In this document: piece by piece, positions 21,995-25,353 of the stretch
How positions within the stretch are numbered: the first letter of the stretch is position 1
How the letters are laid out: each line of letters starts with the position of its first letter
Source of the DNA: Streptomyces sp. TRM70350
GTDB lineage: Bacteria > Actinomycetota > Actinomycetes > Streptomycetales > Streptomycetaceae
Length of the DNA stretch: 64,000 nt
Direction: 5' to 3'
Assembly: GCF_019219825.1 (NCBI RefSeq)
Contig: NZ_JAHUXH010000002.1
Coordinates: 62,001 to 126,000 of the forward strand
Notes under the pieces: model-generated
What the model was told of the DNA's origin: nothing
The model's database searches: none
What the model saw: only the letters and a program-made list of their open reading frames with translations
Position numbers and translations under genes: made by a program

Positions 21995-23383
21995 TCAGTC
22001 GTGGGAGTGCAGCGGCTTGCCGGCCAGGGCCAGGTGGGCCTCGCCGAGCGCCTCGTTCTGCGTCGGGTGGGCGTGGATGAGCTGGGCGACCTCGGCCGGC
22101 AGCGCCTCCCAGTTGTAGACCAGCTGGGCCTCGCCGACCTGCTCACCCATGCGGTCGCCGACCATGTGCACGCCGACCACCGCGCCGTCCTTGACCTGGA
22201 CGAGCTTGATCTCGCCCGCGGTCTTCAGGATCTTGCTCTTGCCGTTGCCCGCCAGGTTGTACTTCAGGGCGACGACCTTGTCCGCGCCGTAGATCTCCTT
22301 GGCCTTGGCCTCGGTGATGCCGACGGAGGCGACCTCGGGGTGGCAGTACGTCACCCGCGGCACGCCGTCGTAGTCGATCGGGACGACCTTCAGACCGGCC
22401 AGCCGCTCCGCCACCAGGATGCCCTCGGCGAAGCCGACGTGCGCGAGCTGGAGCGTCGGGACCAGGTCGCCGACCGCCGAGATCGTCGGGACGTTGGTCC
22501 GCATGTACTCGTCGACGAGGACGTAACCGCGGTCCATGGCGACCCCGGCCTCCTCGTAGCCCAGGCCCTGGGAGACCGGACCGCGGCCGACCGCGACCAG
22601 CAGGACCTCGGCCTCGAACTCCTTGCCGTCGGCGAGGGTGACCTTGACACCGTCGGCCGTGTACTCGGCCTTCTGGAAGAAGGTGCCCAGGTTGAACTTG
22701 ATGCCGCGCTTGCGGAAGGCGCGCTCAAGAAGCTTCGAGCTGTTCTCGTCCTCGACCGGGACGAGGTGCTTCAGGCCCTCGATGATCGTGACGTCCGCGC
22801 CGAAGGACTTCCACGCGGAGGCGAACTCGACACCGATGACACCGCCGCCGAGGATGATCGCGGACTTCGGCACGCGGTCCAGGACGAGGGCGTGGTCCGA
22901 GGAGATGATCCGGTTGCCGTCGATCTCCAGACCCGGCAGCGACTTCGGCACGGAACCGGTCGCCAGCAGCACATGGCGGCCCTGGATCCGCTGACCGTTC
23001 ACGTCCACCGAGGTCGGGGAGGACAGCCGCCCCGCACCCTCGATGTAGGTCACCTTCCGGGAGGCGATGAGGCCCTGCAGACCCTTGTACAGGCCCGAGA
23101 CCACCTCGTCCTTGTACTTGTGGACCCCGGCGACGTCGATGCCCTCGAAGGTGGCCTTCACACCGAACTGCTCGCTCTCGCGGGCCTGGTCGGCGATCTC
23201 GCCCGCGTGCAGCAGGGCCTTGGTGGGGATGCAACCCCGGTGCAGGCAGGTGCCGCCGACCTTGTCCTTCTCGATCAGGGCGACGTCCAGGCCCAGCTGC
23301 GCCCCGCGCAGGGCCGCGGCGTAACCACCGCTACCACCGCCGAGGATCACTAGGTCGAAAACGGTGCTGGCGTCGTTCGCCAC
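21995..23383 (-). CDS. lpdA: Dihydrolipoyl dehydrogenase (E3)
   Basis: A 462-residue flavoprotein that reoxidises dihydrolipoyl groups with NAD+. GTG 23383 is preceded by GGAGGACGTGAC, giving MANDASTVFDLVILGGGSGG. The FAD motif is GGGSGGYAAALRGAQLG, the redox-active disulfide is C46/C51 in GGTCLHRGCIPTK, the NAD motif is IILGGGVIGVEFASAW, and the C-terminal HAHPTQNEALGEA provides the catalytic His-Glu pair. It is the first gene of the lpdA-E2 operon. The 449 bp upstream, to pepA, hold two repeat elements and no gene. Confidence 0.95.
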   Translation of the reverse strand: MANDASTVFDLVILGGGSGGYAAALRGAQLGLDVALIEKDKVGGTCLHRGCIPTKALLHAGEIADQARESEQFGVKATFEGIDVAGVHKYKDEVVSGLYKGLQGLIASRKVTYIEGAGRLSSPTSVDVNGQRIQGRHVLLATGSVPKSLPGLEIDGNRIISSDHALVLDRVPKSAIILGGGVIGVEFASAWKSFGADVTIIEGLKHLVPVEDENSSKLLERAFRKRGIKFNLGTFFQKAEYTADGVKVTLADGKEFEAEVLLVAVGRGPVSQGLGYEEAGVAMDRGYVLVDEYMRTNVPTISAVGDLVPTLQLAHVGFAEGILVAERLAGLKVVPIDYDGVPRVTYCHPEVASVGITEAKAKEIYGADKVVALKYNLAGNGKSKILKTAGEIKLVQVKDGAVVGVHMVGDRMGEQVGEAQLVYNWEALPAEVAQLIHAHPTQNEALGEAHLALAGKPLHSHD

Positions 23384-23587
23384 GTCACGTCCTCCATGCA
23401 TGTGCGCCGTACGCCGGTCTGCGGTGACCGGCAGGCGGCTGGTGTCCGGCCGCTCTACTTCGGCCCTTCGGTGGGGCCCTGTCCTGCCGAGCCCCATCTT
23501 CGCACCTGTCAGCACACAACGAGACGCGGGGCCGGGGTGTGATACGCCCCACGCTCAGATGAGGGTGACGGAAGGGCAGCGCCGCCA

Positions 23588-23630
23588 GGGGTGCGGGGAA
23601 CTGCGCGACCCACCACGGACTCCCCGCACC
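23588..23630 (+). repeat. Dispersed intergenic element, copy 2
   Basis: Contains GTGCGGGGAACTGCGCGACC then CACCACGGAC, matching the core of the family described at 19961-20000, in plus orientation. It lies in the lpdA-pepA gap. Confidence 0.65.
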
Positions 23631-23658
23631 CGCCGTACCACGGAACGGACCGGCTCTT

Positions 23659-23822
23659 AGGGGTCCTTGCACTCTGCCCGCCCGGGTCGCGCGGCCTGGC
23701 ACCGCACCTCGCCGCGTTGCCGAAACGCCCAGGTGGCTCCGCTACCAGGGCGCTCCGGCGCCTTGCGATGCACGGCACCAGACCACGCGACCTGATCGGA
23801 CGCTCATAGTGCAAGGACCCCT
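23659..23822. repeat. 164-bp imperfect palindrome (possible MITE-like or structured element)
   Basis: Terminal 15-bp inverted repeats AGGGGTCCTTGCACT (23659-23673) and AGTGCAAGGACCCCT (23808-23822) are perfect. The interior continues as an imperfect palindrome nearly to the centre: both arms share GGTCGCG, a CTGG-like block and a GCCC-GG-GC block when one arm is reverse-complemented. It contains no plausible ORF and ends 10 bp from the pepA stop. A transcript would fold into one long hairpin. No clear target-site duplication is visible. Confidence 0.7.
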
Positions 23823-23832
23823 CAGGCGAACC

Positions 23833-25353
23833 TCACCCCAGATCGCCCGCGGCGGTCAGCTCGGCCAGCCGCACCAGAGTCCGCACCCCGGACCCCGTAC
23901 CACCCTTCGGCGTGTATCCGAACGGCCCCTGCTCATTGAACGCGGGCCCGGCGATGTCGAGGTGCGCCCACGTGATGCCCTCGCCCACGAACTCCCGCAG
24001 GAAGAGCCCGGCGACCAGCCCCCCACCCATCCGCTCACCCATGTTGGCGATGTCGGCGGTGGCCGAGTCCATCCCCTTGCGCAGATGCTCCGGCAGCGGC
24101 ATCGGCCACGCGGCCTCACCGACCTCCTCCGCGGCCTCGTGCACCGCGGAGCGGAACGCGTCGTCGTTGGCCATCACACCGAACGTCCGGTTCCCCAGCG
24201 CCAGCATCATCGCCCCGGTCAGCGTCGCCACATCCACGATCGCGTCCGGCTTCTCCTCCGACGCCGCCCACAGGGCGTCCGCCAGCACCAGCCGTCCCTC
24301 GGCGTCGGTGTTCAGCACCTCGACGGTCTTGCCGCTGTACATCCGCAGCACGTCACCCGGCCGCGTGGCCGACCCGGACGGCATGTTCTCGGCCAGCGCC
24401 AGCCACCCGGTGACGTTGACCTCCAGCCCGAGCCGAGCCGCGGCGATCACGGCCGCGAACACCGCCGCCGCCCCGCTCATGTCGCACTTCATCGTCTCGT
24501 TGTGACCGGCAGGCTTCAGTGAGATGCCGCCCGAGTCGTACGTGATGCCCTTGCCCACGAACGCGAGGTGCTTCTTCGCCTTCGACGAGGTGTACGACAG
24601 CTTCACCAGCCGCGGCGCCGACGCCGACCCGGCGCCGACGCCCAGGATGCCGCCGTACCCGCCCTTGGCCAGTGCCTTCTCGTCGAGCACCTGCACCTTG
24701 ATGCCGTGCTCCTTGGCCGCGGTCTGGGCGATCGCCGCGAACGCCTCCGGGTTGAGGTCGTTCGGCGGCATGTTGATCAGGTCACGGGCGCGGTTGAGCT
24801 CCTCGGAGACGGCGACGGCGCGCTCGACGGCCGCCTTGAACGCCTTGTCGCGGGGCTTGCCACCGAGCACGGTGACCTCGGCGAGCGGCGCCTTGCCGTT
24901 CTTCTTGTCCTTGCCGTTGTCCTTGTACGCGTCGAAGGAGTAGGCGCCCAGCAGCGCGCCCTCGCCGATCGCGCCGACCGAGGCCGCGTCCGCGACCGGC
25001 AGCGCGAAGGCGGCCTTCTTGGCACCGGCCAGCGCACGGGCGGCGGCCCCGGCGGCCCGGCGCAGCGCCTCCGCGTCGTACTCCGCGTCCTTCTCCGGCC
25101 GGGCCCCGAGGCCCACCGCCACCACGAGCGGCGCCTTGAAACCGGCCGGGGCGGGCAGCTTCGTCACCTCGCCCTCGGCGCCGGAGGCGCCCAGGGTCTC
25201 CAGGACGCCGGCGAGCCTGCCGTCGTACGCGTTGTCCACGGCGTCCGCGCCCGGTGCGACGACCGGGCCCTTGTCGCCCTTGGCGACACCGATCACGATC
25301 GCGTCGGCCCGCAGGCCGGGCGCCGCGGCGGTGCTGAGAGTGAGAGCAGTCAC
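23833..25353 (-). CDS. pepA: Leucyl aminopeptidase (M17)
   Basis: A 506-residue cytosolic M17 aminopeptidase that removes N-terminal residues from peptides with two metal ions. The C-terminal catalytic domain shows GKGITYDSGGISLKPAG (metal/catalytic Lys and Asp) and the family signature NTDAEGRLVLADAL. The N-terminal regulatory domain (1-170) is typical. No strong Shine-Dalgarno sequence precedes ATG 25353, but AGCGAGATT lies close. The upstream gap 25354-25642 holds no recognisable gene. Length is normal for the family. Confidence 0.94.
   Translation of the reverse strand: MTALTLSTAAAPGLRADAIVIGVAKGDKGPVVAPGADAVDNAYDGRLAGVLETLGASGAEGEVTKLPAPAGFKAPLVVAVGLGARPEKDAEYDAEALRRAAGAAARALAGAKKAAFALPVADAASVGAIGEGALLGAYSFDAYKDNGKDKKNGKAPLAEVTVLGGKPRDKAFKAAVERAVAVSEELNRARDLINMPPNDLNPEAFAAIAQTAAKEHGIKVQVLDEKALAKGGYGGILGVGAGSASAPRLVKLSYTSSKAKKHLAFVGKGITYDSGGISLKPAGHNETMKCDMSGAAAVFAAVIAAARLGLEVNVTGWLALAENMPSGSATRPGDVLRMYSGKTVEVLNTDAEGRLVLADALWAASEEKPDAIVDVATLTGAMMLALGNRTFGVMANDDAFRSAVHEAAEEVGEAAWPMPLPEHLRKGMDSATADIANMGERMGGGLVAGLFLREFVGEGITWAHLDIAGPAFNEQGPFGYTPKGGTGSGVRTLVRLAELTAAGDLG

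Follow-up and report, generated by a model that had tools for sequence, protein, structure and literature searches.

The usual view of MITEs, which are non-autonomous transposons, is of two transposase-binding ends with filler between them. Bacterial genomes also carry repeated imperfect palindromes in the form of the REP and REPIN sequences with their RAYT transposases; the family described here is set apart from these by TNA duplications and long terminal repeats, which fit DDE transposases. The nearest precedent is the CMITE group of Acropora corals, small MITEs whose families show stronger conservation in an interior of ~75 bp than at the ends (PMC2872659, in excerpt). Our family resembles them in that the interior is conserved and the ends differ. 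CMITEs, however, are eukaryotic, and all their families share TTAA duplications and a piggyBac-type end motif within one superfamily (same excerpt), whereas here at least two families of transposase appear to be represented among the ends, and the interior is a hairpin whose pairs covary and of which one strand is preferred. Among bacterial repeats, ERIC, YPAL (Yersinia) and Correia (NEMIS, Neisseria) are palindromes of <200 bp that can be transcribed into hairpins, some with RNase effects on neighbours (PMC2229807, in excerpt). The present element is likewise a bacterial MITE-like palindrome below 200 bp; the excerpted account of ERIC, YPAL and Correia describes no swapping of ends about a constant core, and while ERIC acts on mRNA in an orientation-dependent manner (PMC2229807), orientation is random in the present family. 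TIMEs, Tn3-derived non-autonomous elements of bacteria, also combine ends and interiors as modules, but with one kind of end and many interiors (PMC4133298, in excerpt), the reverse of the one kind of interior and many ends seen here. The string "actino" does not occur in the excerpted text of a review of prokaryotic MITEs (PMC10969869). A search of full-text literature, mainly outside the subscription journals and with end and core strings included, returned no description of this family, and for a conserved interior with differing ends it returned the coral CMITEs and no bacterial case.

We analyzed a stretch of 64,000 nucleotides from Streptomyces sp. TRM70350 (the window; C66:62001-126000), in which a preliminary description had reported a palindrome at 23659-23822 beside pepA. 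The palindrome is real but was drawn one base too long at each end, because other copies place the element at 23660-23821; its perfect 15-bp ends (AGGGGTCCTTGCACT / AGTGCAAGGACCCCT) were confirmed, each of them taking in one base of the target duplication. The features of the locus are as follows.

21995-23383, minus strand: dihydrolipoamide-dehydrogenase-like gene on the other flank (Pyr_redox_2, E 5.4e-72, and Pyr_redox_dim; start picked by hand)
23657-23659, no strand: left target-site duplication TTA (of TNA), from TNA flanks in 29/32 copies, identical in 25/32, and an empty site
23660-23821, no strand: whole MITE, 162 bp (among 32 paired copies, 22 measure 162 bp and one 161 bp)
23660-23676, plus strand: left terminal inverted repeat GGGGTCCTTGCACTCTG (25-base end present at 64 places in the genome with up to 3 mismatches)
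23686-23792, minus strand, which is the best-folding strand: shared hairpin core of ~107 bp (model R1, 120.4 bits; strand asymmetry)
23805-23821, minus strand: right terminal inverted repeat (arm complementarity, copy comparison)
23822-23824, no strand: right target-site duplication TCA (of TNA), from the TNA flanks of copies and a single TCA in relative L216
23833-25353, minus strand: pepA-type leucyl aminopeptidase gene (Peptidase_M17, E 2.5e-123; open reading frame)

With these bounds, set by comparison of copies, the element measures 162 bp between outer triplets TTA (left) and TCA (right). Its arms (23656-23684 and 23797-23825) are inverted and 83% complementary, and the pepA stop codon (23833-23835) lies 8 bp from the right duplication. 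In line with the preliminary description, no open reading frame of at least 80 aa is contained in the element, the overlapping frames of that length (98, 105, 101 and 237 aa) all extending past it, and the window holds a single copy (C66:85649-85832 is the only genome match within C66:62001-126000). The RNA folding that the same description had proposed gave a hairpin beyond chance on either strand: the top strand (184 nt) has a folding energy of -105.8 kcal/mol (z -7.2; mean of shuffles -75.4) and the bottom strand one of -136.5 kcal/mol (z -10.0), with 0/200 shuffles as good in each case. In a loose-threshold search of Rfam the best match reached 21 bits against a gathering cut-off of 70; there were five matches, four of them to microRNA-like hairpins, and all fell under gathering scores and were set aside.

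Searching the host genome with the element retrieved 73 matches, counting both strands, and both ends were present in 32 of the 40 loci that were fetched and scanned. From outer G to outer C, these 32 paired copies measure 162 bp (22 copies), 161, 145, 104 and 54 bp (one each) and 53 bp (six), that is, 23 full-length and nine shortened copies. TNA flanks both ends of 29/32, and the two triplets are identical in 25/32; since a C precedes the triplet in 26 copies and a G follows it in 25, the target is C-TNA-G. At the pepA site, 120 bases read beside the pepA flank contained no element in any of the 18 chosen relatives that match this flank (18/18). The clearest empty site, in relative L216, reads GAGCTCTCAGGCGAA, where the window has GGCTCTTA[element]TCAGGCGAA. 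The element is thus short and without a transposase gene, has terminal inverted repeats and a target-site duplication, and occurs in uniform multiple copies with insertion polymorphism, and we regard its identity as a MITE as practically certain. The MITE-like form noted at the outset is borne out by copy number, TNA duplications, empty sites in relatives and a candidate IS5-family helper; the further copies, duplications and empty sites that were to be looked for all turned up in the host genome or its relatives, and the opposite outcome, a hairpin with no other copies and no conserved pairing, failed on both counts. Phage records gave no match to the element, and none of the 31 plasmid records that matched held 80% of the query in one place.

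A role for the hairpin as terminator or mRNA stabilizer of its neighbours had also been suggested. In favour of selection by the host for this purpose, with spread by benefit to adjacent genes, are the very stable hairpin and the location of 15 of the 32 host copies, which by our reading of a crude ORF caller are no more than 15 bp away from the predicted 3' end of a gene. Their position, however, is accounted for by the overlap of the C-TNA-G target with stop codons. No T-tract terminator was found in 23300-24100, the pepA site is empty in all 18 relatives, and orientation to genes is random, at 38 to 41 in co-directional gaps and 51 to 50 beside 3' ends (151 of 195 elements classed, those with a gene called on both sides by our crude ORF caller). 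We therefore find this role unsupported as a reason for conservation and consider the host-benefit explanation very improbable. The random orientation also means that RNA made by read-through is not favoured, and no sigma-70-like promoter was found at the element. In host-genome copies at gene 3' ends, a TAA or TAG stop codon can be preserved through the TNA duplication together with the first G of the element.

An autonomous element with exactly the ends of the MITE was sought among the 64 host-genome places within 3 mismatches of the 25-base MITE end, where no pair at IS spacing was seen by eye. The helper candidate surfaced only through its transposase, not through the end search. It is a 290-codon open frame in the host genome (G000:C2:8058-8873) with PF13340 and PF01609 domains, scoring 219 bits against a cut-off of 110 with the NCBIfam IS5 model NF033580. 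Read inwards, the ends of this IS5 element are TTA|GGGGTCCTTGGAGAATG and TCA|GGGGTTCTTTCAGAATG, so that unequal triplets (TTA, TGA) flank it. Another genome (G009) holds six copies of the same element at 94% identity, and the copy that was read there has ends GGGGTCCTTTCAGAATG / GGGCTCCTTGCAGAATG with a TAA direct repeat on both sides. The MITE end GGGGTCCTTGCACTATG matches three of these four IS5 ends at 14/17 bases and the fourth at 13/17, and thus resembles the ends of an intact IS5-family element in the host genome. By this similarity of ends, the IS5 group is a likely helper of the MITE, a statement we make with good confidence.

Matches to the element in relatives often end before the terminal repeats. 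Aligning elements with differing terminal repeats revealed a common core, strongest in CTCGCCGCGTTG and CGCCTTGCGAT, although the invariance of these anchors among loci found by pattern scan is by construction, as the scan pattern requires them (24 of 123 rows, being opposite-strand matches, and 3 duplicates were left out of the anchor alignment). A covariance model built from 13 cores (R1), the search with which imposes no anchors, matched 59/100 related genomes, the host's own included, and 9/29 genera at E 1e-5; in a sample drawn across the phylum, for which each genome had fewer candidates scored, it matched 8/296 genomes and 2/198 genera. With the same model one genome (G012) gave at least 39 core matches. 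The pattern scan of named genomes retrieved at least 116 stretches. Among the 80 matches listed, most are from Streptomyces, with others from Kitasatospora, Nocardioides, Sphaerimonospora, Microtetraspora, Leucobacter and a Micrococcales MAG. There is hardly any doubt that elements of different end types share this core. Conservation of a ~107-bp imperfect hairpin inside elements with different ends suggests that the hairpin does something for them. Half-cores were looked for at the ends of IS elements. In a scan of 61 IS loci, the occurrence of one anchor alone resembled chance; both anchors were found together at one locus only (L062), which itself holds a MITE.

The ends of 151 rows fell into 22 clusters at the threshold used. 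Five of the 22 are one-row clusters that are second readings of one locus (at L036, L100, L103, L133 and L207), leaving 146 elements without repeats. Seven end types are common, with 37, 35, 19, 16, 10, 9 and 7 rows. Under looser single linkage 124 of the 151 rows join, and many ends are therefore variants of one GGGC-rich type; an IS630 end type (GTGCTGTGACCGG) and the type of the window (GGGGTCC) stand apart from it. A candidate partner of the IS630 type was found in G012, where an element of 1500 bp has an open stretch of 400 codons with 88% identity to the piece of IS630 transposase used as query. The end of this element is identical to that of a MITE (L030) over 32 bases. The query piece itself passes PF13358 and scores 98.4 bits with NF033545, just under the cut-off of 100. 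IS630-type ends have C-TA-G borders and IS5-type ends have TNA duplications, and related cores lie under both. For two further end types the search was less productive: an IS-like end resembling F02 lies near an IS5-type transposase (L240) but is not one of its two ends, so that no helper is claimed, and no pair at IS spacing was seen for F00. Two observations are recorded here for their own sake. Plasmid pSglau1 of Streptomyces glaucescens carries, in a stretch without listed genes, an IS630-type element of ~1.6 kb (L068:2501-4130) with matching ends and a broken transposase frame. One match in a collection of putatively viral contigs, in IMGVR_UViG_2872980847_000001 (L215:1224-1350), is a core element with F02-type ends.

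On a tree of 133 cores, taken from the end clusters of 7 or more rows among the 151 rows, the end type changes 18 times, against a minimum of 6 and a mean of 80.8 when shuffled. The end type of the window forms one clade (100/100), and the IS630 type needs three changes, two of them forced by well supported branches; the alignment has just 108 columns and the tree many open forks. Since the same core lies under ends of other transposases, at least one of them IS630-type with a TA target, the lineage would have changed helpers and kept its core, and on these comparisons of sequence we judge it quite probable that ends were exchanged between helper families. One could instead picture an ordinary MITE lineage whose core has no function and is shared by descent, its ends having drifted along with diverging transposases. 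Such drift would suit the many end types that grade into one another and their strong clustering on the core tree, and it agrees with the existence of forms without a core and with the lack of orientation bias; yet the IS630 and IS5 ends are unrelated while the cores beneath them are closely related. Further evidence on this reading comes from the hairpin itself (see below).

Coreless forms with 53-54 bp between the ends (61-bp forms) occur in four genomes (G000, G193, G305 and G026) with several internal junctions, and a 62-bp coreless element of F02 type occurs in G019. The core is therefore dispensable for presence, and perhaps for movement. That the lengths converge on ~53 bp, close to five turns of the helix, hints that mobility requires a minimum size. 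Individual loci (L039-L044, L047, L282, L288 and L292) show differing junctions, all with 53-54 bp between ends. These forms also bear on the idea that the core is itself the mobile element, inserting into the loops of other palindromic elements. It is always central in the palindrome, and coreless forms are known for end types F05, F02 and F00. However, the coreless forms retain differing scraps of the core arms (GTCGCG, CTGATC) as a deletion would leave them, for which reason insertion of the core into a 61-bp element was dropped; moreover, the CTGATC flank is common to several end types and no core without palindromic arms was recognized. We consider a mobile core scarcely plausible.

In 22 copies of the host genome, 26 changes fall on mismatched positions, and 21 of these make the arms complementary again, with several such changes in a single arm of two copies (L014 and L015); in another copy (L018) both terminal repeats have changed together, and two (L031 and L033) have inverted loops. 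Some short forms (L040, L043 and L288) have two ends that were both copied from one arm. Such marks are those of fold-back template switching at a palindrome. Since many of these changes are shared by descent, we infer, rather than observe, that fold-back copying was the way in which ends were exchanged. A second, smaller hairpin, CTCCCCC...GGGGG(A)CCCCC, is nested in the core at 14 loci (L124, L109, L112, L150, L191, L120, L289, L291, L294, L133, L146, L184, L203 and L117), in six of them at one recurrent right-arm site and in the others in the loop or elsewhere. Its presence under several end types (L124, L112, L150, L191 and others) was weighed as a sign of core exchange and set aside, repeated insertion at one site being equally likely.

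To examine the hairpin itself we used an alignment of 80 matches from 86 of 100 sources, taken at a cut-off strict enough to exclude opposite-strand rows, with a further subset of 68 of the 80 hand-picked for spread. In 79 distinct cores, 91.3% of cells pair and 23/34 pairs change on both sides. The covariation score was 0.334 as compared to 0.115 in shuffled and at most 0.039 in slid alignments, so that base pairs covary beyond both controls, as in a structured RNA; the alignment was fitted to the tested structure, which favours the score.

The two strands are not equivalent. One strand folds better in 144/146 elements (exceptions L114 and L159), with a median difference of 21.8 kcal/mol, and the better-folding strand agrees in 38/38 clusters formed under 85% identity. 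This is because, in registers common to both folds, mismatches read in the top orientation comprise 665 A-C and 21 G-T, the former being 665 G-U on the bottom strand. Of the informative column pairs, 18/19 lean the same way, though a few registers overlap. Subtypes differ at columns 30-32 with 102-104, where U-G and G-U, and G-C and U-G, are swapped with pairing kept. A first count, made on the top-strand structure, had given 26 G-T and 42 A-C (p 0.07), which looked like an absence of strand preference, but the fold of the bottom strand made clear that the signal is masked in that structure. Beyond the core, the arms show the same lean, with 170 A-C against 30 G-T, and the strand signal is therefore wider than the core. 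Where host-genome copies carry private changes at positions that pair, these comprise 9 G-T and 4 A-C, without the lean, which speaks against mutation bias, the numbers being small. In G012, among 35 matches listed and counted by eye, one chromosome half has 10 in each orientation and the other has 9 plus and 6 minus, assuming a central origin. As strand identity ignores both gene direction and replication direction, it must belong to the element.

These results are consistent with the RNA hairpin that the preliminary description had offered as one reading, the better-folding strand being the same throughout and, at this locus, the one that a pepA transcript would carry. They also bear on a role at the DNA level, with the core as a binding site or cruciform that aids synapsis, target choice or host-factor binding in transposition. 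Such a role could explain the conserved asymmetric anchors CTCGCCGCGTTG and CGCCTTGCGAT, conserved partly by construction, and the fixed 53-54-bp minimum size shared by the short forms; but with symmetric ends a DNA transposon has no means of telling its strands apart, and one strand is nonetheless favoured in 144/146; moreover, the coreless short forms persist. We hold a DNA-level role to be improbable. RNA is the simplest carrier of strand identity, and the main alternative is descent from an RNA gene without present function. On that alternative, which completes the picture of an ordinary lineage with a functionless core, the asymmetry would have been fixed by accident in the founder, which was perhaps a gene for a structured RNA, and rapid copying would have preserved it. 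Shared ancestry indeed counts against our preferred explanation, as a founder with G-U pairs followed by descent could give much of the asymmetry. Against a functionless core, 23/34 pairs change both sides, wobble pairs have been exchanged for other pairs in different columns, and a neutral palindrome is expected to gain G-T and A-C equally; we think this alternative rather unlikely. Whether selection acts at the RNA level is, in our judgement, about an even question.

The explanation that we favour, with modest confidence, is that the element is a MITE moved by an IS5-family transposase and belongs to a lineage that kept its hairpin core and changed helpers by changing ends. A transposase of this family encoded elsewhere would recognize the GGGGTCCTTGCAC ends and insert the MITE at C-TNA-G, duplicating TNA. 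The inner ~107 bp would be one member of a wider family of hairpin modules, found also within MITEs that bear the ends of other transposases. In a near-palindrome, a strand that folds back may copy itself and carry a change in one arm to the other, and in this way one new end could become two matching ends. The core would be kept for the folding of one strand, most likely into an RNA hairpin in which G-U pairs and an internal loop are conserved, and this folding would serve the element and not the neighbours. The hairpin module would then be one selected on a single strand, most likely as RNA, having changed helper transposases. A stronger version, which we put forward tentatively as possible, is that selection keeps a self-serving structured RNA on one strand of a palindromic MITE, a portable core that rides many transposases (IS5, IS630 and others) across actinobacteria and swaps ends by fold-back, the RNA aiding mobility or persistence.

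These results add a repeat family that is found in more than half of the sampled relatives (59/100). In this family conservation lies in the filler and variation in the ends, across at least two transposase families. If the folding of one strand reflects RNA, these bacterial MITEs would own a selectable non-coding gene, and the origin and spread of MITEs would become testable by swaps of ends and cores.
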